From contig JAJEKV010000046.1 of assembly GCA_021234155.1 (NCBI GenBank), forward strand, positions 1,788,298-1,852,297: a DNA stretch of 64,000 nt, in the 5' to 3' direction. The translations under genes and the position numbers were made by a program. Positions within the stretch are counted from its first letter, which is position 1; every line of letters starts with the position of its first letter. The notes beneath the pieces are model-generated. The model was not told the DNA's origin and made no database searches. It saw only the letters and a program-made list of their open reading frames with translations. This document shows, one piece after another, positions 3,532 to 50,241 of the stretch. The DNA is from Isoetes taiwanensis (lineage: Eukaryota > Streptophyta > Lycopodiopsida > Isoetales > Isoetaceae).

Positions 3532-3536
3532 CCTCT
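3532..3536. repeat. Target-site duplication, left copy (CCTCT)
   Basis: CCTCT directly precedes the TG start of the left LTR and is repeated at 16471-16475 directly after the CA end of the right LTR, as expected for a 5-bp gypsy target duplication. Confidence 0.85.
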
Positions 3537-5083
3537 TGTGACGTTCCATGTATTTATACAGTATATGTATAAATATACTGACACGTCACACAATAAGGAT
3601 ACGCCACCATGGGGTATTCTAACCTAGGGGGTTGACCTAAAAGGGATTAATTTAGCTATGCTAAATTAATTATTAAAGGTTATATTGTCAAATTAACTTG
3701 ATTAGGATAAATGATTAAGTAGGAAGGTGCCACTTGGTCAAACTCGATCGGCCAGCAGGGAAATGCTAACTTGGGGCATCAAATTGGGTCCCTATCCCAT
3801 TTGACCCCAAAATCGAGCCAGGAGGAGGAGTAACTGAGCGCCCAAGTTGCTGAAGTTGTTGCTGAACACCCAAGTTGCTGAAAGATGGAGGTGCCCCATG
3901 ATAACGGTTCTAACAGAAACTCGGGTTAGTGGGTAGTTTAGCTTGAGCTTCTAGGATAGTGCCTCAGTTAGTCTTCTCTGGTTATCTTTGTTAGGATTAA
4001 CCCTTCTTTGATATTTAGGATTATATTTCAATTATGGATTATGCTTTGTTAAGTAAGGATGGATGGAATCTATGAAAGTATCTCTCATGCCTTCCTTAAA
4101 GCAGTGGATAAAGGGGGGTAGAGACCTCGAGCCCATATATTGTAGTATGCTCCTAGATAGAGCCCCTATTATTCCCATTAGATGCCTCGCGGTGCACAAG
4201 AGCCACCGAAGTGGATGCTATGGAATTGCTTAGCACCGCAGAAGGGATGCGAGGAAGTGGGGTGGGGTCTTGCACGAACATAAAAGGCCCCCGAGACTCC
4301 TACAATGGGCTAGGCCCGAGAAGCTCGGGTCATGTAGAGGGTCGGTATGGGTCCGGACACTCCCCGGGTGCAGGAGGTGTGACCTTTATGGGGCATCCCG
4401 CACTTTGAAGATAAAGTTAGGGGAGTAGGTCCGCACGGATGCGGGGTCGCCGGGCGCGCACGTATTCTAGCTCACCCATGGAACCGCCGTGATCCCGAAG
4501 GGGGATCGCCCCCGACCTGCCCTCATCTGACATGTGTCTTCATGAAACCCAGAGTAGGCTCAAGGGTGGTACCTTGAGTCTGCCTCCTAAGGCTATAGTG
4601 ATCCCATAGCATGATTCGACTCATCCGCAAAGTGTGTACGTGGAGGGGCGGATGGAGTGGACAACCCTAGCCGATGTTCTATGCCGCCCAACGCCATGCC
4701 CGATTCGGCCTCGCTGATCTCTTGAGACCCAGCCACAACGATCCTCACCGGAGTCCGAGCAGGGGTAGAACCATGGGTTTGGGGTGCTTTCTAGTATTAA
4801 AATGCATCTCTTTGTTGTTACTAGTTGATGGATGTGCCACCCTTCGTGGTGGTTGTTGTTATATGATTATGATGTATGTTAACCTTTGTATGCACGCTTC
4901 AATGTAGGAGTCCCATCAAGGGCGTAATGAATGACCCCTTCACAGGTCCTTCACCCGGAGCATCTTTCCATAGATGGCCCGAAAGTTAGACGGAGGGCCC
5001 CGCCATGGCGAAGTTGGTTGCCATGGGAGGGGAAAGTCCTCGCATGTATACGACCGAGCTACCGATATGTTCGGGAGCCACGC
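3537..5083 (+). repeat. 5' LTR
   Basis: Begins TGTGACGTTCC and matches 14901-16470 along its length; the end is set by the primer-binding site at 5084. The AT-rich first ~570 bp are nearly identical between LTRs. The GC-rich remainder differs by many small indels around CG. It contains two AAGTTGCTGAA repeat units near 3845-3890 where the right LTR has three. Open frames inside it (for example 4211-4408) are not conserved in the other LTR and are not genes. Confidence 0.93.
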
Positions 5084-5100
5084 TGGTATCGTGAGCATGG
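5084..5100 (+). promoter_or_regulatory. Primer-binding site, tRNA-iMet type
   Basis: TGGTATCGTGAGCATGG starts directly after the 5' LTR. It matches the plant initiator-Met tRNA primer site (TGGTATCAGAGCC...) at its first seven bases, then degenerates. Confidence 0.75.
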
Positions 5101-5765
5101 TTTTGGTGGACCAAAATTGTTGCACTGGCCATAGTCTAACTCGTTAGATGACGGTACTTTTTCCTAGGTTAGAGCGTCCCAACTCTGCAATTGATGATCT
5201 AGTTAGCTTAGCTATGGGAGGAATGACCTAGTGGGGGTGAAAGGTTCTCTAGTGAAATGGCTAAGGTCAAAAAGTAGAGTTAGCAATTCGAGTTTTGTAG
5301 TCGCCGTAATTTTTTTGTCTACATAGCTCGGATCGACGAGAATTCCGCTCCAATGGATCGGGCGTACTCGACATACTCTAAAGGGGTTGTTAACTGGCAG
5401 CAGGGGGACGAGCAAGGGGGTCAAACCCAACGGCGGCGCTGATAGGGTTTGGACGCCCCGAGCCCGAGGAGATATAAGTGCGATAATCGGGTCGGTAACC
5501 CCCAGTATATTCGCGTGTACATTTACGCAGATAATAATTTTTCCGCAGATTAAAAAAAAAACTTTTAACAAGAAATTTTTTTTGAAATTTAAAAAGAGTT
5601 AAACGGTTTATTTTTCACTTGTTCTTTTCCGGCTTTGTTAAGCCGGTCCGCCATACCCCACGGACTTCGAGATCATCTTGCGCCTTTGGATTTGATTTTC
5701 GGGACCATCTATCCTTCCATCCTAGCGCCTACCCTACCGCCTTCCTAATCGCCAGCGCCACACCT
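5101..5765 (+). other. Untranslated leader of the retrotransposon
   Basis: Leader between primer site and the first ATG with good context (5766). It contains a GATATAAG box near 5469, a T/A-rich stretch at 5550-5600 and a CT-rich segment just before ORF-A. No conserved protein is visible. Confidence 0.4.
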
Positions 5766-6663
5766 ATGGCCAATACTAAGACCACCGTGGACCCTTCTAG
5801 CCTTACCATACCCGAGATTTACGCCTTAATCGCGCGGTACATGACCTCTGATAGTGACTGGATTGACATTCTCCTAAACGAGTTGGTGCAGCGGTTTGCT
5901 AGCGGCCTTCGAATTCCCTATCCCATATTTCACTATTCAAAACAATTTCTCATCAAGCTGAACCTCCAACAGTTGCCCTGCACCATGGTCGAGCAGCCTG
6001 ACCTGGTTATGGTGTTGATTAAGTTTTATCCCTCTGAATGTGAGGAGCACTCCGAGGAGGAAGCCATCCAGATAGAGTCCGCCCGTATTAGGACATCAAC
6101 GCCCGAGAGGATAGGGAAATCGAGAGGGGCGACGCCGAACCCTGCTCGAGTAATGATATTTGGGCCATGGGTGGGCCATTATCAATTGTCAAGCCTTTGA
6201 GGTTCCTCCTTATGTGTGGCATGAAGCATCACAAACCTTTACCTGGGGAGAAATCCCAGACATCAGCTTGGATTACCTGACGACAGTCCAGATCGACATG
6301 GCTCTGCGGCCCGATCACTATCATGCCGAGCTGATTAGGAGGGTTGCGAACCTAAGGTTTGCCCAGATGAATGCGGATATGGAACGAGCCCGTCAGTACC
6401 AGGAGGAACAGGACAGGGCTCAGGAGGAGCGCCAACAGAAAGAGCAGCAGGATAAAGGATCCCAAGATCAGCTGGCCAACAGGGAGCAGGAAGACCAGCG
6501 GGGGCCCAATCAGGCGGATAAGCCGCCCATCAAGAGGCTAAGAAAACTGTGGCCTATAAACCGCATTAGGGATAGGGATAAGTCAAGATCACGGCAAAGA
6601 TTGGCAAGCACAAGCTCTCTGGGAGGCAAGAGCGGGTGGATGCCTCATGGCCCCATCCCGTGA
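5766..6663 (+). pseudogene. ORF-A: accessory protein, N-terminal part of an H3-ending polyprotein
   Basis: The ATG at 5766 (ATGGCC) opens a frame that runs to a stop at 6198-6200. A second frame overlapping from 6160 continues to 6663, and the H3 frame overlaps that. The two switches cancel, so the parts probably belong to one ancestral reading frame of about 417 codons (5766-7016). Visible features: an N-terminal region of unknown fold; a VPPYVWHEASQTF segment at about 6204-6243 that resembles two segments of ORF-B; a Glu/Gln-rich stretch likely to form a coiled coil (about 6370-6510); and a basic Arg/Lys region (about 6530-6600) just before H3. It is not gag: gag lies 3 kb downstream. Function is unknown; by position it may be a nucleic-acid or chromatin-binding partner for the H3 module. 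Confidence 0.6.
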
Positions 6664-7016
6664 CTGGAGCTAAGACGGTTCCCCAGAAGAAGGGGCCGCC
6701 TCCAAAGCCTGCGAGGAAACCCCATCGTTTTCGACCTGGTACCGTAGCTTTACGGGAGATCCGGAAATATCAGAAGACCACGGAGCTCTTAATAAGGAAG
6801 CTGCCTTTCCAGCGGTTGGTTCGAGAAATCGCACAAGAATACAAGACCGACCTTCGCTTCCAGACTTTTGCGATTTTAGCACTGCAGGAGGCCGCCGAGG
6901 CCTACCTCATAGTCCTTTTTGGTGACGCCAACCTTTGCGCTATACACGCAAAGAGGGTCACCATAATGCCCAAGGATTTAGCCCTTGCTCGGAGGATCCG
7001 GGGAGAGCGTCCATAG
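6636..7016 (+). CDS. Histone H3 domain embedded in the LTR retrotransposon
   Basis: The frame encodes an H3 histone fold from [15 protein letters not shown] (6717) to RRIRGERP (stop 7014-7016) with no stop or gap. Over these 99 residues about 13 differ from a plant H3 recalled from general knowledge. Retained: the alpha-N helix, Lys56 (RKYQK), Lys79 (EYKTDLRF), the NLCAIHAKR segment, and His113 and Asp123 used for H3-H3 contact. Position 41 is Phe (H3.1-like in plants), 87 is Phe (neither variant) and 90 is Leu (H3.3-like). The canonical tail (ARTKQTARKS, and ARKS around Lys27) is missing; a Lys/Pro-rich linker ([16 protein letters not shown]) precedes the core. Loop 1 has normal length, so it is not CENH3-like. 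There is no ATG in this frame before the core, so translation must come from ORF-A. No introns, consistent with capture from mRNA. Confidence 0.93.
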
Positions 7017-7280
7017 CTGCCTAAGGGCATTTGCATTGTAATAGATTTTCTTTGGTATAATAATAGGAAATCCCGTTTTGTACTGTGCTTCTATTCTAGA
7101 TTAGTTGACTTCTTTTCGTTCATATTTTCTTTAAAAATAAAAATAAAATAAATAAAATAAATAAATAAACTAATAGCAATGCTGACGTCAGCATAACGGC
7201 TATAAGAAGACTTCATAAGTTAGGGTTTCATTTTTATTCTCCAGCTTTGTTACCCTCCTTCCTCTTTCCCTCCAGCGCAT
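7017..7280 (+). promoter_or_regulatory. Internal promoter-like spacer between the H3 ORF and ORF-B
   Basis: After the H3 stop comes AT-rich sequence, then the perfect 12-bp palindrome GCTGACGTCAGC (7181-7192), which holds an ACGTCA hexamer like those in plant histone promoters. A TATAAG box follows at 7201-7206, then TAGGGTTT (telo-box-like, about 7221-7228) and a pyrimidine-rich leader ending in ATGGCC at 7281. The spacing (TATA about 80 bp before the ATG) suits a promoter for ORF-B. Promoter activity is inference only. Confidence 0.5.
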
Positions 7281-8630
7281 ATGGCCGCCATTGACCTCCT
7301 TGCTTGGTACCAAGATGGGGAGCATTGGGACCCCCAAATACCCTTTGATCTCCTCAAACCTTTCCTACTCCAGCGTGTTGATCTTATCTCGAACATGCAG
7401 CAGCACCCTGATTACGCTGGATTTCTGCAGTTCTATACAGAGGAGATGCTCCCTCTTTGTATTCCTCTGGGGGAACCTCCTCGCCTGTACACTGAACGAG
7501 TCGTGGTAAAGGAAATGCTTGGTGGTGGTAAGAGGGAGTACGAGTTGCTGCGAGGCAAACTCCGATGGGCTCGACAGCCCCCGGTTTTCATCCACGAGGG
7601 ACAAGAGTTCCTCGAGGTATCCTTTGCTCTGTCCATCCTTATGGACCAGTATGTGGAGGATGAAGTTCTACCTGCAGAGAAGGGCAAGGCCCCAGAGTTG
7701 TCAGATGAGGAAGAGGACGAGCAGATTGACATGGATGATTTCGTCCGGTGGAAGCAGATCGCAGAGGAGATGCCGCCATGCCGCGAGCGAGGTGGGCGTT
7801 TAGCTGGATTGGACGTCGTTCCAGTTATATACCACGAGGGGCAGGAGTTCCTTCTTTTGGATGACATCATGTGGACATACCATGTAGTAGCCAGGGTCAA
7901 AGGAAAAGGAGAAAGCACAGGTTCTCTATGAACTGGCCGAATATTGCATGGATGACTTCATTGATTTTTCATCCGTGGACCTCCCTCCTGAGGTACAACA
8001 GGTACTCCAGTTCCACCAGCAGACTCTCCATACCAACCTCCACCAGAAGCCTTCACGGTTGTGGGACCCTCAGTCCCAAATATCCTCATGCTCGAGCTCC
8101 CCTCTTAGTTAGAGGAGGAAGGCGAGGACCTTTATGGTAATCCTGCCCACTATAGGGAAGAGAGAGAGGAACGCATGGAGGAAGAGGTCCCTAAGAACCT
8201 AGAGAAGGAGGTGGATACTTCAGTTACGACCCATGGAAAGGCATCTGGAAGCCCCCTCACCCGCTTCTTCCTATCTGCTTTTAGTCAGGGGCAAGTTTTC
8301 TTTGTGTCACGTGATTTAGCCCCAGAAGCAGAATCCTCATGGTGGAGTCTCCGTGCCCTGTCTACTCTTGCTGGGCACAAGAAGTTATCCTACCACACGC
8401 TTACTTACGTGTTGGTGCGGCGGGATCTCGACCTGGCAGCCTTAGGACAGGACATAGCACCCTGGATGGGTATGAAGCTCCTTGTGGCGGCCCCGTTAGC
8501 AGTCGCCTACCCTCCGGAAGTCGCTTCTCTCGCGGCCGTTACAGTTGATTCAGGTGTTGCTTTATTACGTCATCGGCCGCCACCACCACCTCCTCAGCCT
8601 ATGGAGGAAGATGAGGAACCCCGTTCTTAG
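7281..8630 (+). pseudogene. ORF-B: acidic accessory protein with repeated HEGQEF module
   Basis: The ATG at 7281 opens 216 codons. The frame shifts near 7905 and returns near 8105, so 7281-8630 spans 450 codons with two cancelling indels. Features: a predicted helical N-terminus; HEGQEF at 7593-7610 and again at 7833-7850, each after a PPVF/VPVI-type strand; an acidic stretch between them (ELSDEEEDEQIDMDD); a Glu-rich segment near 8140-8200; and a C-terminus rich in Pro (HRPPPPPPQP) and acidic residues. I recognise no family. The HEGQEF modules resemble one segment of ORF-A, suggesting that both frames arose by duplication. It lies between the H3 ORF and gag, in the same orientation, with its own promoter-like upstream sequence. 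Confidence 0.5.
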
Positions 8631-8851
8631 ATATCGTTTTACAACTATAACTTTGTGTATTGGGTATAGATGTAATTTTTGATTGGCAAATTTTTAAGCC
8701 ATCGTATAATATATGTGCTACCTTCTTATGTCTTATGATTATTGTAGCATTGAGTTCAATCACCTTGTTCCCTATGATACCTGGTTATCTCTTTTAGAGT
8801 TGTAGTATACAAAATCGTTCAATATGGTATATTCATTCTTGCCGTCTTACA
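8631..8851 (+). other. Non-coding spacer between ORF-B and ORF-C
   Basis: AT-rich, no coding. It ends in GCCGTCTTACAG before an open frame, which looks like a splice acceptor, so it could be an intron or an untranslated boundary. Confidence 0.3.
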
Positions 8852-9311
8852 GACGATGAGCTCGAAGAAATCGAGGACAGAATAACCAACGAATTACGAA
8901 GAGACGATCACGTACCTCCCGACCAAGACTACGGTCAACAGTATGGGGAGCATCAGGATCGGGATGATCACTACGAAACAGGGGAATCCCTGGAAGAAGG
9001 AGGCCCTATGATTCAACTAAAGGCTTGGAAATAGTCAATATTCTCCGTAGCGCGCCTTTGAGCATCTTCAACAAACTCTTCGTCGTACCTGGGATTACTG
9101 GGAAATGACGTTGCACGAGGCTTATGCTGACGCCAATGACCATTTATGGCAGCTCTTTTATGCGCTAAGAGACCTTTTTAATTTACTCACCGTTAGTCCT
9201 ACGTTAGACTACCAGTATGTTATCATCCAGGCATGGGCTCGCTATAAGGTAGTCAGGGCAGTACGGGAGAGTGTCCGTTACTCTATCCTGTACCCTTTTG
9301 CGCAGCCCTAG
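8852..9311 (+). pseudogene. ORF-C: acidic/helical accessory ORF fragment
   Basis: An open frame without ATG (8852-9034) encodes an acidic, Asp/Gln-rich segment beginning DDELEEIEDRITNELRR. A second frame (9051-9311, ATG at 9105) encodes a helical segment with LHEAYADANDHLWQLFYALR. A stop and a frame change separate them. No family recognised. It precedes gag and follows ORF-B in the same orientation, so it is the third extra unit of this element. Confidence 0.35.
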
Positions 9312-9519
9312 GCCTGATCTCTTCAGTTTTTTTTTTATGCCTACGTATGTGTTGATTAAAAAAATTACCCAATGCATAATCACTACTTTTGTATTGTGTA
9401 ACCTTAAGTTCTTGTTAAAACACATCTCCAATGTAAATTGCCACTTTGACTTATAAATAAAGTTCTTTTCCTTAATTTTCTTGTAATGTCTTTATTATTA
9501 TTTTCTAGTACTGTTCAAA
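9312..9519 (+). terminator. Possible 3'-end/leader region before gag
   Basis: AT-rich segment containing ATAAATAAAG near 9454-9463, a candidate polyadenylation signal, and TTTTCTAG near 9502-9509 that could act as a splice acceptor for the gag transcript. Both roles are inferred. Confidence 0.25.
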
Positions 9520-10440
9520 ATGATCTTCATTGTGACACTTGGTATCACAATAATTCCGCTTATACCTTCTTCTACTCAATATACCTCATGGCAGACACCT
9601 TCGAATGCTAGCAGATTAACACCAGAGCAGGAACTCATGTTGATGAAGCGGCAGTTAGTAGAGCTGCAAGCTTATGTGTTAAATGCCAATCCACCACAGC
9701 ATATGCAGGAGGATGGACCGGAGTTACCTCCGTTACACCAAGTCCACCACCACAGCTGACCCACTTGCGAAAAAGGCCTCAGACCAAGACAAAGGAGGCA
9801 ATCCGCCCAAACGCCGCCGAAGCTCGTTCTACGATAGCCACCTCCTCACAACCCCACTTCGGTCCTCGAGTCGCCTTATATCATCTCGTGACCATGCAAA
9901 GCGCCGACAAGGAGTAACCGTAAAGCGATTGATACGACCATTACCTGCGATAAGGAAAATAGGAAATTGGCTCAGCTTTGATGGGAAATCGAGAGGTGGC
10001 CCGAACGCAGAGTTTTTGGTTGGATGAAATGAAGGAGTTTAAATCCTATGGGATACCGGAGAAAGATACGGAAAAGTTGCCACTACAAACCTTACAGGGC
10101 CGCCAGACACGGTGGAAGGGCTATGCTAGAGCCAAGCATCTAGACAGAGAGGATGCAAGTTTAAAAAGTTTGCAAAAGCTTTTTAAGTCGCATTATGTGC
10201 CCGATAACAAATGCCAGAGATTCGACTTTTATAGGTTGGAGCAGAAGGAATGTCAGTTCAGGCCTATAGATGAATTCATGCTTTGAGGTCAGATGTCCCG
10301 TGTATGAATGAGAAGAGGGTGGTGGAGGGCTACATTGAAGGGTTAGCCCCCTTCCAATTAAACGAATGGTTAAGGCCATAGACCAAGTCGATTCTGTAGA
10401 GGTCGAGGCTAAGGCATTGAGCCTGAAGAGGACACGCCAT
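9520..10440 (+). pseudogene. gag of the chromovirus (broken)
   Basis: The ATG at 9520 opens 79 codons, then the frame breaks. From 9978 the typical retrotransposon Gag block appears: GRQTRWKGYARAKHL, then LQKLFKSHYVPDN, FDFYRLEQKECQFRPIDEF. A stop follows at 10284-10286 and a diverged continuation (VVEGYIEGLAPFQLNEWL) lies just downstream in another frame. A decayed nucleocapsid knuckle (CRRRALHANCP near 10658) follows, with its first cysteine missing. Gag would form the virus-like particle. Several breaks make this copy non-functional. Confidence 0.8.
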
Positions 10441-10799
10441 TTAAAACCGCACTAACGCCTTTCTTACTCCCCTACCAGACACCTTACAAGCCCCGGCCAC
10501 CAAGTCTCCGGGCCTTCGTGAACTCCTAACTGCCGCCAGAAAAGAAAAGTCACCAACATGGCACAAACCGAGCAATGTCCAGAACGCAGTTCGGAACCTC
10601 TTACAATCTATTCCCAAAGAGGCCCGAGCAGCTCCAAAGAGAAGGCATGTTCTGGTGTAGGCGGCGGGCACTTCATGCGAATTGCCCTTATGTCACCATG
10701 ACGCCCCGGGCGGCGCACCTTGATTGGGACGATCGAAGTCTATACCATTGCCGACGAGGAAGCTCCCGGAATATATTCACGCAAGGCCCCATATCCTTG

Positions 10800-11291
10800 T
10801 AACCATTGAAACCAAGAATCTTGAAAGTTAGCTTTGCCGTTATTTCCACTATAGGTCAAGTAGACAAGAAGCCCTTCATAATTTTTATGGATACGGGAAG
10901 TACACATAATTTTGCTTCTCCTAGAATGGCCCAAGTATTGCGCCTTTGAGACTTTGAGGTCCCGAATTTAACCTCGCGGACTTTAGCGCTGGTAAAATCG
11001 GACATACTCATGGGTCGCGATTAACCTTAAAATGCAGCTCCCAGGTGCAAAGGGCATTGGGTGCCGAGGTTAATGGATATTGGCAAATATGACCTGATTG
11101 TTGGTATGGAATTCTTGGCATCTGCAAAAGCCAATATAGACTGCGAAAAACGGGAGGTTACCTTCAACGCAGCTAATGGAGCCCGCGTAACTATTAAAGG
11201 TGATCCCTTAAACCCCATTATGCAGTCTATGTCCATCAGGCAGTTAAATAAGGCTATACGCAAGGATAAGCTACTTTGCGTTATCCATTGA
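10800..11291 (+). pseudogene. Retropepsin (protease) domain of pol
   Basis: The catalytic motif MDTGSTHNFAS lies at 10887-10919 (Asp codon at 10890), the standard DTG/S active site of gypsy aspartic proteases. The C-terminal half of the fold, YDLIVGMEFLASAKANIDC, is at 11088-11144. Both are in the same frame but stops near 10948 and 11024 lie between them, and a stop closes the frame at 11289. The enzyme would mature Gag and Pol. Confidence 0.85.
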
Positions 11292-11325
11292 GTCAGATGC
11301 TAAACAGAAGCAAATAGTTGATGCA

Positions 11326-12760
11326 TTGCCAGAGAGCATTGCTAATCTTCTCAGGGAATTTAGCGATCTCTTCCCAGACGAGATCCAGAAACTTCCTCCA
11401 TTTAGAGGGGTAGAATGTGAGATAGCTTTGGAACCCGGTACTAAGCCTACCAGTAAGGCCCCGTACCGTATGAGTCCCCCTGAATTGGCAGAGCTTAAGA
11501 AGCAACTTCAAGAGTTACTAAACTTAGGCTTCATTCGGTCTAGTGTTTCGCCTTTTGGCGCTCCTATCCTTTTTGTTAAGAAGAAGGATGGCTCCTTGAG
11601 GATGTGTATTGATTATCAGCAGCTCAACAAGCATACGATCAAGAATCGCTATGCTTTGCCTAGAGCAGACGATCTTATGGACCAGTTGCAAGGAGCCAAG
11701 TATTTTTCAAAGATTGACTTACGCTCCGGATATCACCAAATAAGAATTAAAGAGGAGGATATCCATAAGTCTGCTTTTCGCACTAGATATGGGCATTATG
11801 AGTTTACAGTTATGCCTTTTGGACTAACTAATGCCCCCGCAACTTTTATGCGGTTAATGAATGATGTCTTTCGACAATACTTGGATGATTTTGTTGTTAT
11901 TTTCCTTGACGACATTCTCATCTATAGTAAGACCCTGGAGGAGCATGAGAAACATCTTAGGCTGGCCCTGCAAAAGTTACGACGTCACCAACTGTTTGCC
12001 AAGTTCTCTTAAGTGCAAGTTTGCCACTCCAAAGGTGGACTATTTGGGTCATGTCATTTCAGCAGAGGGAATTGCTACAGATCCAGCGAAAATAGAGGCA
12101 GTGAAGGATTGGCCCATTCCAGGTAATGTTTCAGAGGTCCGAAGTTTCTTGGGATTGGCAGGATATTACCGGAAATTTATTAAGGATTTTGCAAAGATTG
12201 CAGCACCTCTTACTGATCTTACAAAGCATGAGAAAGTGAAGGATTGGATTGAACATTGGAAAGCAAAGGTCCAGGGAAGTTTTCAGAAGCTTAAGGATGC
12301 TTTAACGTCAGCACCAGTCCTCACATTGCCGGACCCCCAAAAGGATAAACTAGTAGCAACGGATGCCAGCAAGATTGCTACCGATGGAGTCCTAATGCAG
12401 GAGGAGGGGAGGGTTATTGCCTATGATTCAAAGAAAATGAATGAGATTGAACAGCGATACCCTACCCATGATCAGGAATTGTTGGCCGTTGTTCGCGCTC
12501 TGCGTATATGGAGACACTAACTTCTTGGTAGAAGATTCCAGCTTGATACGCATCATCAGAGTCTCCGTTATCTATCAACCCAGCCGAATCTCAATCTCCG
12601 TCAAAGGAGATGGATGGAATTTCTAGAGGAGTACGATTTTGAGATTATGTATAAGCCTGGGAAACACAATGTGGTTGCGGATGCGTTATCACGCCATCCC
12701 TTGGTAACCCGAACCCATTGTAACGCGATTTCCACACTCACCAGTGAGTTCGGAAAATAA
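11326..12760 (+). pseudogene. Reverse transcriptase and RNase H of pol
   Basis: RT spans about 11380-12250: [44 protein letters not shown] and the catalytic FLDD at 11902-11913 ([10 protein letters not shown]), then [10 protein letters not shown] and [11 protein letters not shown] after a one-base frame break near 12010. RNase H begins near 12350 (VATDAS...) and includes [13 protein letters not shown] stop at 12518-12520 interrupts it before THHQSLRYLS and DALSR. Order and motifs are those of Ty3/gypsy. Confidence 0.93.
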
Positions 12761-14277
12761 ATAGAGCAGACCTTGGCCACGGATCCAGAGTTCCGTGATG
12801 TGTGGGATAGTTTGGCTAAGGGGGCATGCACAGATAAAGAACGTGAAGCTTTCCGTTTGTATAAGAAAGAGGGCAATTTGTTATATCACAAAGATAAGTT
12901 GTGTGTACCTGAGACTTCAGGAGTGCGTAAGCTTATTCTCCATGATACACACAACAGCCCTATAGCTGGACATGCAGGTTTTATGAAGACCTACTTTAAG
13001 ATCCGCTCCAGTTATTTTTGGCCTTGCATGAAGAAGGACATTGCCAGGTATATTAAGCAGTGTCAGGTGTGTCAACAAACCAAGGCTGAGCAATTAAGGA
13101 TTCCAGGAGAGTTGCAACCTCTGGATGTGCCCAATGCCAAATGGGAAGTAATAACCATGGATTTCATTGTGGGCCTTCCACGTACTCTCCGTGGATATGA
13201 TGCATTGATGGTAGTGGTCGACAAATTGTCGAAAATGGCTCATTTCTTGCCATGTCGTACCACGGATACAGCCTTCGATACCGCTTTGCTGTTTACAAAG
13301 GAGATCTTCAGATTGCATGGAATGCCAAGGGTTATAGTATCCGACAGGGATCCCAAATTCGTAAGTGCATTCTGGAAAGATTTCTTTGCCACCATCCAAA
13401 CCAAACTTGCTATGAGTACGGCATATCATTCTCAGACGGATGGTCAGACAGAGCGTACCAATCGCATTATAGAGGACATGCTGCGGAGTTATGTGTGGAG
13501 TAAGCAGTCACAATGGGCCGACTATATTTATTTGGTCGAGTTTGCTATAATAGCATGAAACAGGAGTCTTCTAGAATGTCTCCCTTCATGATAAATTATG
13601 GTTATCAATGCCTTACTCCCGACACATGGCATAATTCCGTTTCGAAGGTGGAGGTTTCTCAACAACTCCTTTTGGAAATGCAAGCTTTAGTTGAGGAAGT
13701 TCGTGGATACTTATTGGATGCACGCAGTCGTCAGAAGAGTGTCGCGGATAAGCACAGAACCCCACGAGTCTTCCAGGTGGGTGAATCAGTTTGGCTCAAG
13801 ATTAAGGTAAAACAAGCCAAGCTTAAGATTGGTAATTGCAAAAAGCTCGCACCCAGATGGGCTGGGCCGTTCAAGATCCTTGAACGTGTTGGAGAACAAG
13901 CATATCGTTTGGATTTGCCACCCCGCTTGAAGATCCACAAGGTTTTTCACGTGAGTCTTCTGAAACAACATACCCCAGATCCAGAGGAGATCTTGGATAC
14001 ACCCACCCTCCTTGAAATGACAGAAGAGCATCTAGATATAGTGCCTGAAGCTCTTTTGGATCGAGCCTATAAGCAGACCAGGAGGACTCAAATGTTGCAA
14101 TACTTGGTTAAGTGGAAACACTTGCCAGTTGAGGATGCTACGTGGGTGATGAAGATAGACCTTGAGAAGCATTATCCGGACTTCATGCGGGAATCTCAGG
14201 GCCGCACCATCAACGATGCTATCAACCCCGCACCCGGCGGTAAGCTTGAAGGCTTGATTCGTGCAGTAGAGGGGTAA
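12761..14277 (+). pseudogene. Integrase with GPY/F module and C-terminal chromodomain
   Basis: The HHCC zinc domain is at about 12940-13085 (HDTHNSPIAGHAG ... CQVCQQTKAE). The DDE core has Asp in ITMDFIVGLP (about 13160), Asp in VSDRDPKF (about 13340) and Glu in QTDGQTERTNRIIEDML. A frame break lies near 13550. The GPF module (WAGPFKILERVGEQAYRL) is near 13860. The C-terminus has a chromodomain-like segment, LLDRAYKQTRR...YLVKWKHLPVEDATWV (about 14050-14150). In chromoviruses this module binds histone marks and steers integration to heterochromatin; here it coexists with an H3 module in the same element. Confidence 0.93.
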
Positions 14278-14887: not shown

Positions 14888-14900
14888 AAGCGGGGGAGAA
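14888..14900 (+). promoter_or_regulatory. Polypurine tract
   Basis: AAGCGGGGGAGAA directly abuts the TG start of the 3' LTR and would prime plus-strand DNA synthesis. Confidence 0.8.
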
Positions 14901-16470
14901 TGTGACGTTCCACGTATTTATACGGTATATGTATAAATATACTGACACGTCACACAATAAGGATACGCCACCATGGGGTATTCTAACCTAGGGGGTTGAC
15001 CTAAAAGGATTAATTTAGTTATTAAAGGTTATATTGTCCAATTAACTTGATTAGGATAAATGATTAAGTAGGAAGGTGCCACTTGGCCAAACTCGATTGG
15101 CCAGCAGGGAAATGCTAACTTGGGGCATCAAATTGGGTCCCTATCCCATTTGACCCCAAAATCGAGCCAGGAGGAGGAGTAGCTGAGCGCCCAAGTTGCT
15201 GAAGCTGTTGCTGAAAACCCAAGTTGCTGAAGTTGTTGCTGAACACCCAAGTTGCTGAAAGATGGAGGTGCTCCATGATAACGGTTCTAGCAGAAACTCG
15301 GGTTAGTGGGTAGTTTAGCTTGAGCTTCTAGGATAGTGCCTCAGTTAGTCTTCTCTGGTTATCTTTGTTAGGATTAACCCTTCTTTGATATTTAGGATTA
15401 TATTTCAATTATGGATTATGCTTTGTTAAGTAAGGATGGATGGAATCTATGAAAGTATCTCTGTCAGCTTCCTTAAAGCAGGGATTAAGGGGGTAGAGAC
15501 CTATGAGCCCATATATTGTAGTATGCTCCTAGATAGAGCCCTGTATTATTCCCATTAGATGCGGCCTGTGCACAAGAGCCCACCGAGTCGTGGATGCTAT
15601 GGAATTGCTTAGCACCAGAGAAGGGATGCAGTGGTGAAGTGGTGGTGGGGTCTTGCACGAACATAAAAGGCTCCCCGAGACTCCTACATTGGGCTAGGCC
15701 CGATAGCCGGGTCACGTGAGGGGCGGGTATGGGTCCGACACTCCACGGGTGCGAGAGGTGTGTCCCCGTATGGGGCATCCCGCACTTTGAAGATAAAGTT
15801 AGGGGAGTAGGTCGCACGGATCGCGAGGGTCGCCGATGCGCACGCATTCTCTAGCTCACCCATGGAACATTTGCCGGATCCCGGAAGGGGACGCTTCCCG
15901 AGGCTTGCCTCATGGGAGGTCTTCATGAAACACAGAGTAGGCTCGAAGGGTGGTACCTTGAGTCTGCGTCTCCGGAAGGCTATAGTGATCCCATAGCATG
16001 ATTCGACTCATCTGCAAAGTGTGTAATGTGAGGGGCGGATGGAGTGGACAACCCTAGCCGATGTTCTATGCCGCCTAACGCCATGCCCGGTCGATTCTGG
16101 CCGATCTCTTGAGACCTATAGTCGGTCGATCCTCACCGAGTCCGAGGGGTAGAACCATGGGTTTGGGGTGCTTTCTCTAGTATTAAATGCATCTCTTTGT
16201 TGTTACTAGTTGGATGGATGTGCCACCCTTCGTGGTGGTTGTTGTTATATGATTATGCTGTATGCTAACCTTGTATGCACGCTTCCGCAACGTAGGAGTC
16301 CCATCGAAGGCGTGGGCCGAATGACCCCTCTGTGTCCTTCACCCGAGCATCTTTCCATAGATGGCCCGAGTTAGACGGAGGGCCCTGCTCATGGCGAGTT
16401 GGTTGCCATGGGAGGGGAAAGTCCCCGTATGTATACGACTGAGCGCCGTATATGTTCTGGGAGCGTCACA
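14901..16470 (+). repeat. 3' LTR
   Basis: Matches 3537-5083 and ends GAGCGTCACA before the CCTCT target duplication. Compared with the 5' LTR it has an additional AAGTTGCTGAA-type unit (about 15190-15262). Its GC-rich half shows many small indels at CG dinucleotides, while the first ~570 bp differ little. Confidence 0.93.
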
Positions 16471-16475
16471 CCTCT
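16471..16475. repeat. Target-site duplication, right copy (CCTCT)
   Basis: Directly follows the CA end of the 3' LTR and equals 3532-3536. Confidence 0.85.
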
Positions 16476-30922: not shown

Positions 30923-31521
30923 ATGACTGGACAAGTTTTCGCCCATGTTCAACCTCAAGATGCAAAAGATTGCAATCCAAGGAAGAAGAGAAAGGAGTTG
31001 TCCATAAATCCTGGTGAGTCGACGCCCCCCAAGATTCTTTGGCATTGATTGTTCATGATAATCAGACTGATGCAATCCAAAACAAGAAAAGAAAATGACC
31101 AGTTGATTGGCCTGATAATGCAATTGGGACAATGCTTTCTTTAATGAAAGAGTACAAAGTTCATAACAATGGGAACATCAATCTTTCTGCTGATCAATGG
31201 AGAGAAATCATGATCAAACTGCAACTCTCAGTAGAGGGATTGGAAGACTTGAGGCAATTGAGTAATAAATGGGACAAATTGCAGATAAAGTTCCAGGATG
31301 AAAAAGAGGCTTCTGAAAAAACTGATGCAGAGCCTTCAAATTGGCCATGGTTTGAATTCATGGAAGACTTGAAACATGGACAGACTAATGAAAGAGACAT
31401 ACCTGGTGGAGGTGATGATGGTGATTTTGGCCCTGAAGCATTTGAGGAAGCTCAAATGTACACAAATGAGTTCATGTCATCTGCATTCTTTGAAACAATA
31501 GGTACTGATGCATCTTTTTGA
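30923..31521 (+). pseudogene. Myb/SANT-like (trihelix-like) DNA-binding protein, broken
   Basis: The ATG at 30923 starts a basic N-terminus (RKKRKELSINPG). The frame shifts near 31040 and an in-frame TGA sits at about 31096 just before VDWPDNAIGTMLSLM. The domain continues as ADQWREIMIKLQLS, then LRQLSNKWDKLQIKFQDEKEA and SNWPWFEFMEDL, the three-helix Trp pattern of plant Myb/SANT-like DNA-binding domains. An acidic C-terminal segment ends at 31519. Such domains occur in trihelix factors and in transposon-derived proteins; the long, simple intergenic context favours a transposon-related or recently dead copy. The only usable downstream ATG (31132) would cut off the first helix. Confidence 0.65.
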
Positions 31522-33830: not shown

Positions 33831-36800
33831 TTTTTTTATTATGAATAATAATGTGGAATGCATGAAACAAAGACATGAATTATGACTTTGCATGAATTAT
33901 GACTTCGCATGAATTGTTAAACATGAATTATGACTTCGCAGCTAGCACACAGCGGGAATAAATTTCATACAGGAATATTATAAGGATCACTTGGCATCTT
34001 TCATCTTCATGAATACATGGGCATCTTTCGTCTTCTGTTTTATGGTTATTAATGGTAAAGTTAAAGGTTATACAGATTATGAAGGGCATGTCACTTTATA
34101 TTTATACAGGAATGCCATTTGGCTAATGTTTGATGGTTATTAATGGTCTCGTGCCTTTATTTGTCAACATGTTGTGATGCATAGATGCATCTACGATTAA
34201 TGGGTCATTGATTTGGAGGAATAACCCTTGGTTCTACTAACCTTTGCATACGTGCATTAAGCGTGGTCAAGATATGCAAGGCTTTATCTCTATTCAGTAT
34301 TTACGGCGCCGTTAAGTTTAGGTCGGTTAGCCAATATGTTAAGTATATTGGAGCTGTAATATATGAATGTCATGACATAGGCTTATGACCTTGGTGACAT
34401 ATGGATGAAAATAAAAGAGGATACTATGACAATATTACTGGGCTCTGGGCACCTTTGGATTTTCTGCATACGTGTGTATTATCTTGGATGGAAAATTTTA
34501 ACTATTGCAAATACGAAATACCATGGATGAGCATATTTGGTAACCCTAAACCTTTTACGACTCCTTGAAATACTTCTACATGAACAGATTTAATCGAGAC
34601 GATTTACATCTGGCACACTGCGGATTCGTGAGCGGATTCGTGACCGGATTCGTGACCACGGAGGAAAGGTATTGTTGTGATTCCATAAGGGATTTGGTTT
34701 CCAGATATTTAGCTGTGTTTATATCCTATATTCCAAGAAGATCAAAGGCTGTCAATTCCGCAAAGCAGTGATGGCCTTGAAGCAAGTGCGGATCCACTCT
34801 TGCTGATCCACTCTGACGGATCTAACTCTAGCATTGGAAGAAGCCGATTCAGTGGGCATGCATGCATTTATTAGAAAAGAAGCCGAGGTTTGCATGCATT
34901 TATTAGAAAAGAACCATCTGGTCAAAACAGGGGAAAGCGCCATGCAATCTTCAAATCAGGCCAGCAATGCAGAAGATGTAGCACAAAACTCAAAGATTTG
35001 TGGAAGACCATATGGATGAGCAAACGTTCCATAGAAACTTCTGCACACAGGACACTGGTCTGAAAATTCAAGCTTATCAGGTTTGAAATATATTTGTAAT
35101 ATTATGTATCGTAATTTTATGGTCTGATTCCTTGTGTAGAAACTGAAATAAGTGTATAAACAAAAGAATTATGCGCTCATTGGGATTAAATTATAATTTG
35201 GAGAACTTGACACATTATTCTTAGATCTGGCTAGCGTGCTAAGTCATATTACAGATCTAGAGGAATTTTTTAGCTTTCACATTTGCTTTTGCATGCTGAT
35301 TATATTTCTTACATGAGATCTAGCTAGAGGTTACAATGTTTATGAATGAATAGCCTTGATATTAGAATCTATGGGTTTCAAGAATTGTGGCCTAAATATA
35401 GCGATAGGGAAGAGAATCAAGGAAGAAAAACACAGATCTACAAAGAAGAACAAGGTTTTATAATTTCTGGTTGCCCCTGGATTGAATGTGATTCTGGAAA
35501 TGCAAAGATTCTGGCAGTGCTGAGAATTTGTGGCAAATTCAGTGGTTAATGCATTGTAAGGTTTAAGCTATGTTAATAATTTTGTGACGAATTCTGTGGC
35601 AAATTCAGATAATGGATTGCAAGCAATTGATCCAATTTCTATTTCTCAATGCGAAGCAGAAGATGAAATGCAGAAAAGCTGATGCATATGTGAACAAACA
35701 AGACATTGGTGGAGCTACTAGTAATTTACATATCAACAAAATTGAAGACAATATTGTGGCACAAAGGCTCCTCTCAGGTCTGACTAGTTTCATTTAAGTG
35801 GCTGCAACTGCCTATAAGGAAGAGCCTAATATGTTTGAATAGGATGCTGTATGAACTCAAGCCTATGGTGAACTTAAGCAAAGGGAGTAATAAGAAAGCC
35901 AAGCCTTAATAGCATTTGTTATGGATATTATGCATGCATCCGTGGTGGCTTATGCTATTAGATTATAAACAATGTGGACTGATTGCATATTGTTGTGAAC
36001 TTGAAATATTAACTGAGGGTTGAGATGTGGCATAGAAATGATTAACCCCTGACATAAGAATTATGTAGCAACGAAAATACAAATGAGGTATGATGGGCAT
36101 TGAGCTTAGCTGCAGTGAAATGTCCAAGTAGTTATGCTGATCCTTTCTGCTAGAGGGCTAGTTTTCTTGCTGCTGATATAAGGATATATGCATAAGAAGA
36201 TAGGGCAACAGGTCATTAATGTTAAGCTAAAGTAACCAGGGCCTTGAGTATAGTAATACTATGCCATGGACCAGTGTCTTTTGTTTAAGTTCAGGGCATG
36301 CTTTAGAACATGTGAAATGCAAGATTTAAAGGCTTATTGCTGATTTCTAATAGGGTAACAATGCTGATTCTGGGGATACAAATAATTAAGTGGGTTTTGA
36401 ATTATCAGATTAAGTTGAACAGATAAATAGATGCCATGTTTGCATCACTCTTATGTTCTAATGCCTTAATGGTAAAAAGGGCATTAGGTAGGTCTGCACT
36501 TGTTGATGCTAAAATGGTACAGGGCTGAATCTGCTTCTATTTTGATTATTTAAACATGCAAGGTGAAGGGCGAAGAGCCCAAGAGATCTGTAGCTTACCT
36601 GTGATGGCTTATGTGGTTACCCTTTCCAAGGCTAACATGCATTTGGTTTCATTGCAGGTAACGGGATTTCTTGCTCCTATGTGTGTTTTCCCATTATTTC
36701 AAATTGGAAAAGCTTACAAGACAAGATGACAATGGAAGATTGAGCTGAAAAAATAAAACAATCTATTACGTCGTTGATTCGGCAACATGGTAGTGACCTC

Positions 36801-37235
36801 TAGGACTTGAAAATTATTTTGTACGTAATATGTTGGCTAAGGTCAGTGCTTTCATATCAACTGATTCAGTGCTTTCATATCAACTGATTCAGGTTTAAGA
36901 ATTTGTATGATCTAAGTGTGCTGGATATTTTAATTCTAGTCTAGAAAAGCAGTCTTTTAGACTTCAAAAAGTATTTTAACATTGGTAATACAAAGATTTA
37001 TGGAGAACTTTTTGGATTCTGAATGAAATTATGTTTATAAGCTCTAGAGAATGGGGAACTTCTTGTAGATTGTAGAATATCGTAATTGCTTTTGCCTTGA
37101 TAAATGCTAACCATTTTAAGGCTTAAGTCAAATGTACACCTGTTTTGGCTTAAGGCTGCATATTGACCGGAAGTGGTCTTTGCAAAAGTTCATGAAAGGT
37201 AAAAGTCTGTTTGAACAGGTTTAAAAGGTTTTTTT
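33831..37235 (+). repeat. 3.4-kb direct repeat, copy 1
   Basis: Matches 37708-41115 almost base for base. It starts in a T run (T run 33817-33837, then ATTATGAATAATAATG) and ends in a T run (TTTAAAAGG then T's). The small frames inside (for example 34565-34771, 34834-35019, 35346-35549) are repeated in copy 2 but lack domains. It contains a local 12-bp duplication (GGATTCGTGA.C) and a 34-bp tandem (GCATGCATTTATTAGAAAAG) near 34860. Confidence 0.9.
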
Positions 37236-37707: not shown

Positions 37708-40700
37708 TTTTTTTATTATGAATAATAATGTGGAATGCATGAAACAAAGGCATGAATTATGACTTTGCATGAATTATGACTTCGCATGAATTGTTAAGCA
37801 TGAATTATGACTTCGCAGCTAGCACACAACGGGAATAAATTTCATACAGGAATATTATAAGGATCACTTGGCATCTTTCATCTTCATGAATACATGGGCA
37901 TCTTTCGTCTTCCGTTTTATGGTTATTAATGGTAAAGTTAAAGATTATACAGATTATGAAGGGCATGTCACTTGCCATTTGGCTAATGTTTGATGGTTAT
38001 TAATGGTCTCGTGCCATTATTTGTCAACATGTTGTGATGCATAGATGCATCTACGATTAATGGGTCATTGATTTGGAGGAATAACCCTTGGTTCTACTAA
38101 CCTTTGCATATGTGCATTAAGCGTGGTCAAGATATGCAAGGCTTTATCTCTATTCAAGATTTACGGGCCGTTAAGTTTAGGGTCGGTTAGCCAATATGTT
38201 AAGTATATTGGAGCTGTAATATATGAATGTCATGACATAGGATTATGACCTTGGTGACATATGGATGAAAATAAAAGAGGATACTATGACAATATTACTG
38301 GGCTCTGGGAACCTTTGCATTTTCTGCATACGTGTGTATTATCTTGGATGGAAAATTCTAACTATTGCAAATACGAAATACCATGGATGAGCATATTTGG
38401 TAACCCTAAACCTTTTACGACTCCTTGAAATACTTCTACATGAACAGATTTAATCGAGACGATTTACATCTGGCACACTGCGGATTCGTGACCGGATTCG
38501 TGACCACAGAGGAAAGGTATTGTTGTGATTACATAAGGGATTTGGTTTCCAGATATTTATCTGTGTTTATATCCTATATTCCTAGAAGATCAAAGGCTGT
38601 CAATTCCGCAAAGCAGTGATGGCCTTGAAGCAAGTGCGGATCCACTCTTGCTGATCCACTCTGACGGATCTAACTCTAGCATTGGAAGAAGCCGATTTAG
38701 TGGGCATGCATGCATTTATTAGAAAAGAAGCTGAGGTTTGCATGCATTTATTAGAAAAGAACCATCTGGTCAAAACAGGGGAAAGCACCATGCAATCTTC
38801 AAATCAGGCCAGCAATGCAGAAGATGTAGCACAAAACTCAAAGATTTGTGGAAGACCATATGGATGAGCAAACGTTCCATAGAAACTTCTGCACACAGGA
38901 CACTGGTCTGAAAATTCAAGCTTATCAGGTTTGAAATATATTTGTAATATTATGTATCGTAATTTTATGGTCTGATTCCTTGTGTAGAAACTGAAATAAG
39001 TGTATAAACAAAAGAATTATGCGCTCATTGGGATTAAATTATAATTTGGAGAACTTGACACATTATTCTTAGATCTGGCTAGCGTGCTAAGTCATATTAC
39101 AGATCTAGAGGAATTTTTTAGCTTTCACATTTGCTTTTGCATGCTGATTATATTTCTTACATGAGGTCTAGCTAGAGGTTACAATGTTTATGAATGAATA
39201 GCCTTGATATTAGAATCTATGGGTTTCAAGAATTGTGGCCTAAATATAGCGATAGGGAAGAGAATCAAGGAAGAAAAATACAGATCTACAAAGAAGAACA
39301 AGGTTTTATAATTTCTGGTTGCCCCTGGATTGAATGTGATTCTGGAAATGCAAAGATTCTGGCAGTGCTGAGAATTTGTGGCAAATTCAGTGGTTAATGC
39401 ATTGTAAGGTTTAAGCTATGTTAATAATTTTGTGATGAATTCTGTGGCAAATTCAGATAATGGATTGCAAGCAATTGATCCAATTTCTATTTCTCAATGC
39501 GAAGCAGAAGATGAAATGCAGAAAAGCTGATGCATATGTGAACAAACAAGACATTGGTGGAGCTACTAGTAATTTACATATCAACAAAATTGAAGACAAT
39601 ATTGTGGCACAAAGGCTCCTCTCAGGTCTGACTAGTTTCATTTATTGAATGCTTCTAAGAAGTATGTGTTTTAAATATGACAAAGCTTGAAATTCAGAAC
39701 TGTTTTGACGCATTTTTGTGCATAAGTGGTTGCAACTGCCTATAAGGAAGAGCCTAATATGTTTGAATAGGATGCTGTATGAACTCAAGCATATGGTGAA
39801 CTTAAGCAAAGGGAGTAATAAGAAAGCCAAGCCTTAATAGCATTTGTTATGGATATTATGCATTCATCCGTGGTGGCTTATGCTATTAGATTATAAACAA
39901 TGTGGACTGATTGCATATTGTTGTGAACTTGAAATATTAACTGAGGGTTGAGATGTGGCATAGAAATGATTAACCCTGACATAAGAATTATGTAGCAACG
40001 AAAATACAAATGATGTATGATGGGCATTGAGCTTAGCGGGCGTGAAATGTCCAAGTAGTTATGCTGATCCTTTCTGCTAGAGGGCTAGTTTTCTTGCTGC
40101 TGATATAAGGATATATGCAGAAGAAGATAGGGCAACAGGTCATTAATGTTAAGCTAAAGTAACCAGGGCCTTGAGTATAGTAATACTATGCCATGGACCA
40201 GTGTCTTTTGTTTAAGTTCAGGGCATGCTTTAGAACATGTGAAATGCAAGATTTAAAGGCTTATTGCTGGTTTCTAATAGGGTAACAATGCTGATTCTGG
40301 GGATACAAATAATTAAGTGGGTTTTGAATTATCAGATTAAGTTGAACAGATAAATAGATGCTATGTTTGCATCACTCTTATGTTCTAATGCCTTAATGGT
40401 AAAAAGGGCATTAGGGTGAAGGGATGCTAAAGAGTCCAAGAGATTTCCAAGGTGAAAGCTAAGAGTCCAAGAGATGTAGTGATGGCTTATGTGGTTACCC
40501 TTTCCAAGGCTAACATGCATTTGGTTTCATTGCAGGTAACGTGATTTCTTGCTCCTCTGTGTGTTTTCCCATTATTTCAAATTGGAAAAGCTTACAAGAC
40601 AAGATGACAAAGGATGGAAGATTGAGCTGAAAAAATAAAACAATCTATTACGTCGTTGATTCGGCAACATGGTAGTGACCTCTAGGACTTGAAAATTATT

Positions 40701-41115
40701 TTGTACGTAATATGTTGGCTAAGGTCAGTGCTTTCATATCAACTGATTCAGTGCTTTCATATCAACTCAGGTTTAAGAATTTGTATGATCTAAGTGTGCT
40801 GGATATTTTAATTCTAGTCTAGAAAAGCAGTCTTTTAGACTTCAAAAAGTATTTTAACATTGGTAATACAAAGATTTATGGAGAACTTTTTGGATTCTGA
40901 ATGAAATTATGTTTATAAGCTCTAGAGAATGGGGAACTTCTTGTAGATTGTAGAATATGGTAATTGCTTTTGCCTTGATAAATGCTAACCATTTTAAGGC
41001 TTAAGTCAAATGTACACCTGTTTTGGCTTAAGGCTGCATATTGACCGGAAGTGGTCTTTGCAAAAGTCTATGAAAGGTAAAAGTCTGTTTGAACAGGTTT
41101 AAAAGGGTTTTTTTT
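37708..41115 (+). repeat. 3.4-kb direct repeat, copy 2
   Basis: Counterpart of 33831-37235. Differences: about 80 bp present here at about 39645-39725 but missing from copy 1, absence of the 12-bp duplication, a changed segment near 40410-40470, and scattered small substitutions or indels. It ends in a longer T run (41108-41124). Confidence 0.9.
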
Positions 41116-49340: not shown

Positions 49341-49651
49341 TGCTCTGTCTAGTTACGGGATGATACTGCTAAGGGATTGACCAAGGCAGATGTCCGGTCT
49401 AGTGATGCTAGTTCAGGCCGGGTTTTTTTTTAGGAACTTCATCTCACTTGGTACATCTAGTGACACTTCCTACCCTTCTGCCTTGTGGCCAGAGTTGTAA
49501 AGATTATCCTATAGTAGCATCTAGGATGGGAAAAAAAATATATCTGAAAAGTTCCTTTGTAATAATATACTATGAGTAATATCTTACTGACTCTAAATTG
49601 TTTGCATCTGGCTGATCTACATTATTTGCATCTGGCTGAAAAAAATTGCAG
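49341..49651 (+). other. Non-coding, ends in intron-like acceptor
   Basis: No coding. Contains a short duplication of ATT.TTTGCATCTGGCTGA at 49600-49640 and ends AAAAAATTGCAG before an open frame, which fits a 3' splice site. Confidence 0.4.
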
Positions 49652-50241
49652 GAAGCATTTGATGAGGAGGAGTATCAAATTATTCTGCCTATTTGGAACA
49701 ACGAGCTAAAGACCATTGGGTATGACAAAAATAGGATTGAATGTCCAAACAGTGCTGTACAAACCATTATATGCTGCATCAAGAATATGAAAGTACATGA
49801 AATAATGCTGGAAAGGGAAGCCATGAGGAGTCCAGATCAGTTCTCAGCTGTGTCTCACCTTGGTTTTAGTGAATGGATACTCTTATTACCCCTTATCAAC
49901 AGGCTTTCAGATAAAGAGGAGGAGGTCGCCCCCTTCATCTACGGGCTGTATGACAGTTTGGCTCAAAAAATATACAATTGGACTAAAACAGAAGATGAAC
50001 TTGTTAAGAATTTCATCATTGGAGTCACTGCACTAGAAGATGTTAATGAAATTATTAAAAAATATGATAATGGTGGAGAATTTACTAGTCATGCATTCAA
50101 TCAGTTTTGTGCTGATCATGGCATTGAGCACCAAACTACCGAGCCTCATAATCCACAACGTAATGGCATTGTTGAGCGGAAGAATCGCAGCATTGTTGAT
50201 ATGGCACGTTACTTGCTCGCTCAATCCTCAGCATCCATTTA
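49652..50241 (+). pseudogene. Chimeric frame: unknown exon fused to copia integrase
   Basis: An open frame without ATG runs uninterrupted from a TTGCAG acceptor. The first ~138 codons (EAFDEEEYQIILPIWNNEL ... YDSLAQKIYNWTKTEDEL) match no retrotransposon block I know. From 50066 it continues in frame as copia integrase: DNGGEFTSHAFNQF (second catalytic Asp), then EPHNPQRNGIVERKNRS (catalytic Glu). The integrase lacks its zinc finger and first Asp. The junction lies at IIKKY|DNGGEF, where copia normally has RSDNGGEF. Either a host exon joined a copia remnant, or decayed copia sequence is unrecognisable upstream. Confidence 0.6.

Follow-up and report, generated by a model that had tools for sequence, protein, structure and literature searches.

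A histone H3 core inside a Ty3/gypsy chromovirus of Isoetes taiwanensis

Structure of the element

The window (the whole stretch of Isoetes taiwanensis DNA that we analyzed, 64 kb in length) contains an LTR retrotransposon that carries the coding sequence of a histone H3 core (Table 1). The LTRs have TG..CA ends and the 5-bp sequence CCTCT on both sides, a PBS-like site (its TGGTATC motif is presumably of the initiator tRNA-Met type) and a purine tract lie between them, and the final bases of the 5' LTR are unlike the 3' LTR copy. The element is one finished insertion with H3 inside; host coding sequence lies within its ends, as in host-gene transduplication. The pol region has the Ty3/gypsy order of RT, RNase H, and integrase, with the chromodomain of a chromovirus at the integrase C-terminus, in agreement with an earlier note on this DNA that described a gypsy element whose integrase ends in a chromodomain. 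The same note placed H3 in sense orientation between the PBS and gag, which is where we find it, with gag placed by position; the sole gag piece tested (9963-10283) had no Pfam match.

The interval from the PBS to gag measures approximately 4.4 kb and holds three extra coding regions separated by spacers. The first of them, ORF-A, includes H3 and spans 5766-7016. Its last part is open across the junction between linker and H3, with no stop in 6582-7016; two frame changes separate the ORF-A ATG (5766) from H3, so a plain reading of the present copy cannot yield an ORF-A-H3 protein. The earlier proposal that H3 is the C-terminus of something larger is supported at the level of the reading frame, which H3 shares with the ORF-A start and which stops at H3's own end. 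No Pfam family matched ORF-A or ORF-B. A protein search with ORF-A returned 79 candidates, none at an E value of 0.01, the 7995 candidates scored for ORF-B included no relative, and none was found in viral contigs scanned with ORF-B, the linker plus H3, and the ORF-A start. Homology between ORF-A and ORF-B had looked plausible by eye but was unsupported, with no pair of pieces exceeding shuffles. A structure model of an ORF-B piece, made without an alignment, had a pLDDT of 36 and is uninformative.

Table 1. Coordinates within the window of the element and of the features it carries
Feature	Position	Strand	Basis
Target-site duplication, left copy (CCTCT)	3532..3536	.	Flanks 5' LTR
5' LTR	3537..5083	+	Right end inferred from PBS
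PBS-like sequence, begins TGGTATC	5084..5101	+	Adjoins 5' LTR
Acceptor-like AG, 10 nt ahead of ORF-A ATG	5754..5755	+	Prediction only
ORF-A first part, from ATG 5766, same frame as H3	5766..6200	+	ORF list
ORF-A middle part, different frame, Q/E-rich then basic	6157..6663	+	ORF list
ORF-A last part: Lys/Pro-rich linker, H3 core, natural H3 end and stop	6582..7016	+	ORF, Pfam, PDB
Histone H3 core (H3 residues 37-135)	6717..7013	+	Translation, Pfam, PDB match, alignment
A-rich tract (31/40 A), possible poly(A)-tail relic	7134..7173	+	Base count
Acceptor-like AG, 5 nt ahead of ORF-B ATG	7274..7275	+	Prediction only
ORF-B, broken; pieces 7281-7931 and 8109-8630 share one frame	7281..8630	+	ORF list
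ORF-C region; 8798-9034 and 9051-9311 differ in frame	8798..9311	+	ORF list
gag to protease region, heavily broken	9487..11247	+	By position
pol: RT, RNase H, integrase, chromodomain; broken	11248..14277	+	Pfam-type domain matches
Chromo match	about 14041-14187	+	Chromo 2.6e-08, past curated cut-off, after SH3_Tf2-1
Polypurine-tract-like sequence	14890..14900	+	Adjoins 3' LTR
3' LTR	14901..16470	+	Ends TGTGAC..GTCACA
Target-site duplication, right copy (CCTCT)	16471..16475	.	Flanks 3' LTR

Elsewhere, the window contains a large direct duplication (33831-37235 and 37708-41113, 94-97% identical), a Myb/SANT-like DNA-binding domain match at 31099-31518 (1.3e-08), and the integrase core and retroviral polymerase SH3-like domain of another element in neighboring frames (49640-50710). 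An open frame on the minus strand (58517-59851) has two GTP cyclohydrolase I stretches; two such domains in one frame are a trait of the plant enzyme, in keeping with a plant host.

Identity and sequence of the H3 core

The core translates to 99 amino acids with zero stops, the frame 6582-7013 matches the Pfam Histone family at 1.7e-41, and the top PDB match of the H3 frame is a histone H3.3 chain (1.2e-53), which bears out the stop-free, 99-residue H3 core described earlier. In ungapped comparison with plant-type H3.1 or H3.3, 85 of the 99 residues are identical and 14 differ from each; 13 are unlike both, F41 matches H3.1, and L90 matches H3.3. Judged by its sequence, the element's H3 has the conserved core of the canonical H3 fold and terminates at the same position as H3, with RGERP-stop in place of RGERA-stop, and it lacks the canonical tail (ARTKQTARKS..., with its modifiable lysines). 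A Lys/Pro-rich sequence precedes KPHR. When aligned to the H3 tail, the upstream stretch in the H3 frame did no better than shuffles (P = 0.13 to 0.89) and is not recognizable as such, consistent with the claimed replacement of the tail by a Lys/Pro-rich linker; the absence of a private ATG for H3 was likewise confirmed, with zero in-frame ATGs in 6582-6716.

Centromeric CENH3 proteins are marked by a longer loop 1 and a strongly divergent core, and a CENH3 identity was rejected because the alignment to H3.3 and H3.1 is gapless through loop 1. A tblastn search of the 64-kb window for a second H3 found none, its single 17-residue match at an E value of 8.5 being noise. Among the best 120 of 7991 scored protein candidates, there was no clear sister of the element H3; many of the top ones are annotated with H3-related domains twice the length of H3, and none matches the element H3 at over 4 of its 13 residues unlike both references. 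An AlphaFold model of the H3 frame had a pLDDT of 52 (21 sequences), and Foldseek returned 11 matches for it, none with an E value below 0.001 and none a histone; the model is of poor quality and uninformative.

The replacements in the core are mild, with a mean BLOSUM62 score of 0.71 versus -0.37 to -0.45 in neutral simulation. They are milder than neutral at P = 0.004 to 0.007 for 14 changes and at P = 0.02 to 0.04 for a stricter set, a value that is approximate because the 13 sites of this set were compared with 12-change simulations. They also coincide with sites that are variable among other H3s (P = 0.015, for 109 of the best 120 hits, which were selected by likeness to the element H3; the 11 hits with alignments shorter than 95 residues were left out). 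In 20 other H3s, 64 core columns are invariant, and the element departs from them at a single one (E105G), a count biased by the drawing of those H3s from query-like hits. All 24 positions that we take to be fold, H4-pairing, tetramer, and DNA-contact sites retain the usual residue type, so the H3 core could be capable of forming a histone dimer. The mild replacements hint at constraint, whether this acted within the element or, before capture, on a divergent source gene of the host. CpG observed/expected is 0.99 in H3 and 0.40-0.74 elsewhere, and we rejected a young capture as the reading of this undepleted CpG because a codon control that kept the protein and used the element's codons gave a mean of 0.98 (P = 0.47); TpG alone was low in H3 in this control (P = 0.019).

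Breakage of the element and LTR divergence

The earlier note contrasted a broken gag and pol with an unbroken H3, and both were observed, but ORF-A is also broken and the contrast is statistically weak. With indel rates taken from the LTR pair, the chance of zero indels in 297 bp is 0.07 at the rate of the whole LTR or 0.57 at that of the first 577 columns, and with 14 replacements placed randomly the core stayed stop-free in 44-51% of simulations, compared with 52-56% for 12 replacements. With a chance of 0.07-0.57 of escaping indels and of 0.44-0.56 of escaping stops, the unbroken H3 is weak evidence.

The K2P distance across the full LTR pair is 0.119. The first part of the pair has eight single-base differences and two indels, and 47 of the 57 difference clusters lie beyond column 577, mostly GC-rich and with substitutions and indels mixed. 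The differences past this column are bunched, with near-identical stretches interspersed. Local consensus error is a possible source of the bunching, and if such error is present, some of the gag and pol breaks may be artefacts too.

Predicted splice acceptors

Directly ahead of the ORF-A and ORF-B ATGs are strong pyrimidine tracts that finish in CAG or TAG (5724-5766 and 7243-7281) and resemble splice acceptors. By a home-made acceptor score, devised after the sites were seen, an acceptor-like AG scoring at least 9.5 lies within 15 nt upstream of 3 of the 208 internal ATGs (5766, 7281, and 8856); among control ATGs at 17000-63900, the count of strong acceptor-like AGs upstream was 12 of 1149. 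The ATG at 8856, in the ORF-C region, opens just nine codons in the present copy, and the one at 9520, before the gag region, has an acceptor score of 8.2 that is equalled or exceeded by 14 of the 208. Donor-like sites in the leader are weak, with the best at 5168. We predict expression of the extra ORFs from spliced mRNAs.

Origin of the captured H3

We favor the reading, at a probability of roughly 0.6 and drawn from one element copy, that H3 was captured as a fusion in the element lineage. A Ty3/gypsy chromovirus lineage with extra ORFs between its 5' LTR and gag would have acquired a piece of host histone H3 coding sequence, 5'-truncated near H3 residue 37, and this piece would have come to form the C-terminus of ORF-A, the first of these ORFs, with its own stop retained. 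The capture would predate the present insertion. ORF-A and ORF-B might then be made from spliced mRNAs via the acceptors right before their ATGs, and the histone fold could bind H4 and tether ORF-A to nucleosomes, either at integration or while the RNA/cDNA is nuclear. The two breaks in ORF-A between its ATG and H3 speak against the fusion, and the mild replacements, instead of reflecting constraint in the element, may already have been present in a divergent H3 gene of the host. Many host fragments are carried in plant retrotransposons without function, and the H3 piece may likewise have been caught in the lineage by chance and carried as a passenger, a reading that competes on function rather than on capture. 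We consider this a serious contender at somewhat below even odds: a stop-free H3 is unremarkable (P = 0.44 to 0.56), an indel would be lacking by chance in 7 to 57% of cases, and ORF-A is broken in the present copy, but the conservative replacements at naturally variable positions do not suit a piece without function.

Capture in the lineage also has to be weighed against events confined to the present copy. LINE-type machinery could have copied a polyadenylated H3 mRNA of the host and inserted the retrocopy, truncated at its 5' end, into this copy alone, with the ORF-A frame joined accidentally. The cut at residue 37 together with a complete 3' end would fit such an origin, as would the A-rich tract that begins 118 nt past the H3 stop, the only 40-nt window on the plus strand with at least 29 A in the 64 kb. 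However, the tract sits in an AT-rich spacer like the one after ORF-B, there is no target duplication (the flanks share just two overlapping 6-mers, as chance gives), and H3 lies in the ORF-A frame; the same route could equally explain the first capture of H3 by the lineage. We therefore regard a retrocopy private to this copy as unlikely. Far less probable still is an assembly chimera or consensus error that joined an H3 gene to the element. The accumulation of LTR difference clusters past column 577 would suit a poor consensus there, but H3 lies mid-element between LTRs with a matching 5-bp target duplication, and its position inside one finished insertion speaks against an assembly join, as do the missing canonical tail and the 13 residues unlike both reference H3 types.

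Possible role in chromatin

The earlier note took the combination of an H3 and a putative histone reader to suggest a chromatin-directed strategy, such as decoy nucleosomes, self-marking of its DNA, or packaging; such a strategy would be a hypothesis, and our analysis disfavors a pairing of H3 with a reader. The captured H3 is without the N-terminal tail that bears the K4, K9, and K27 marks. With cage residues mapped by eye against HP1, the chromodomain of the element resembles the group II type of plants, in which the first cage aromatic is absent and the third usually so (PMC3350952). With the tail missing and a chromodomain resembling group II without cage residues, a pair of marked histone and reader is unlikely. 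Because these marks are impossible, and given the group II-like chromodomain, we prefer a tether through the histone fold over self-marking and reading. A role of the fold as a tether of ORF-A to nucleosomes is itself less likely than not. The fuller scenario is less probable again: an ORF-A made from alternatively spliced mRNA of a multi-ORF plant chromovirus would enter nucleosomes or H3-H4 dimers through its tail-less H3, and so anchor to chromatin either the nucleic acid of the element or its integration complex.

Comparison with known systems

Should a conserved H3 core be present in many copies, the element would be, as far as our searches of open-access papers reached, an LTR retrotransposon with its own histone, and entry of a retroelement into chromatin via a histone fold rather than a reader domain would become testable. 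If H3 is confined to the present copy, it would add to the host-gene fragments known from plant retrotransposons. Our searches of open-access papers listed, by title or abstract, no LTR retrotransposon that carries a histone.

The extra coding regions have parallels among the additional ORFs of plant LTR retrotransposons, which are likewise extra sense ORFs in the internal region, but according to a review these mostly lie between pol and the 3' LTR, and the word "histone" occurs zero times in its text (PMC7264820). Retrosat2, RIRE3, and RIRE8 of grasses are plant gypsy-type elements with an orphan sense ORF ahead of gag-pol; they have a single ORF0 and no histone, with "histone" and "chromodomain" each appearing zero times in the text (PMC3485330). 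In Phalaenopsis, Ty3/Gypsy elements captured a host 2-ODD (m6A demethylase) domain, which they carry as an additional ORF and retained through rounds of replication (PMC9289625). The domain is a different one, and for those elements many copies and biochemical activity were demonstrated, whereas ours is known from the sequence of one copy (PMC9289625). A parallel for the histone itself is the transduplication of H3 by hAT transposons in Dothideomycete fungi, where host H3 coding sequence from a transcript or retrocopy is also carried aboard a transposable element (PMC6710886). Those are fungal DNA transposons, whose copies number in the hundreds when RIP-damaged or in the tens when likely active, and their H3 is not described there as a fusion to an element ORF, whereas here H3 shares the ORF-A frame (PMC6710886).
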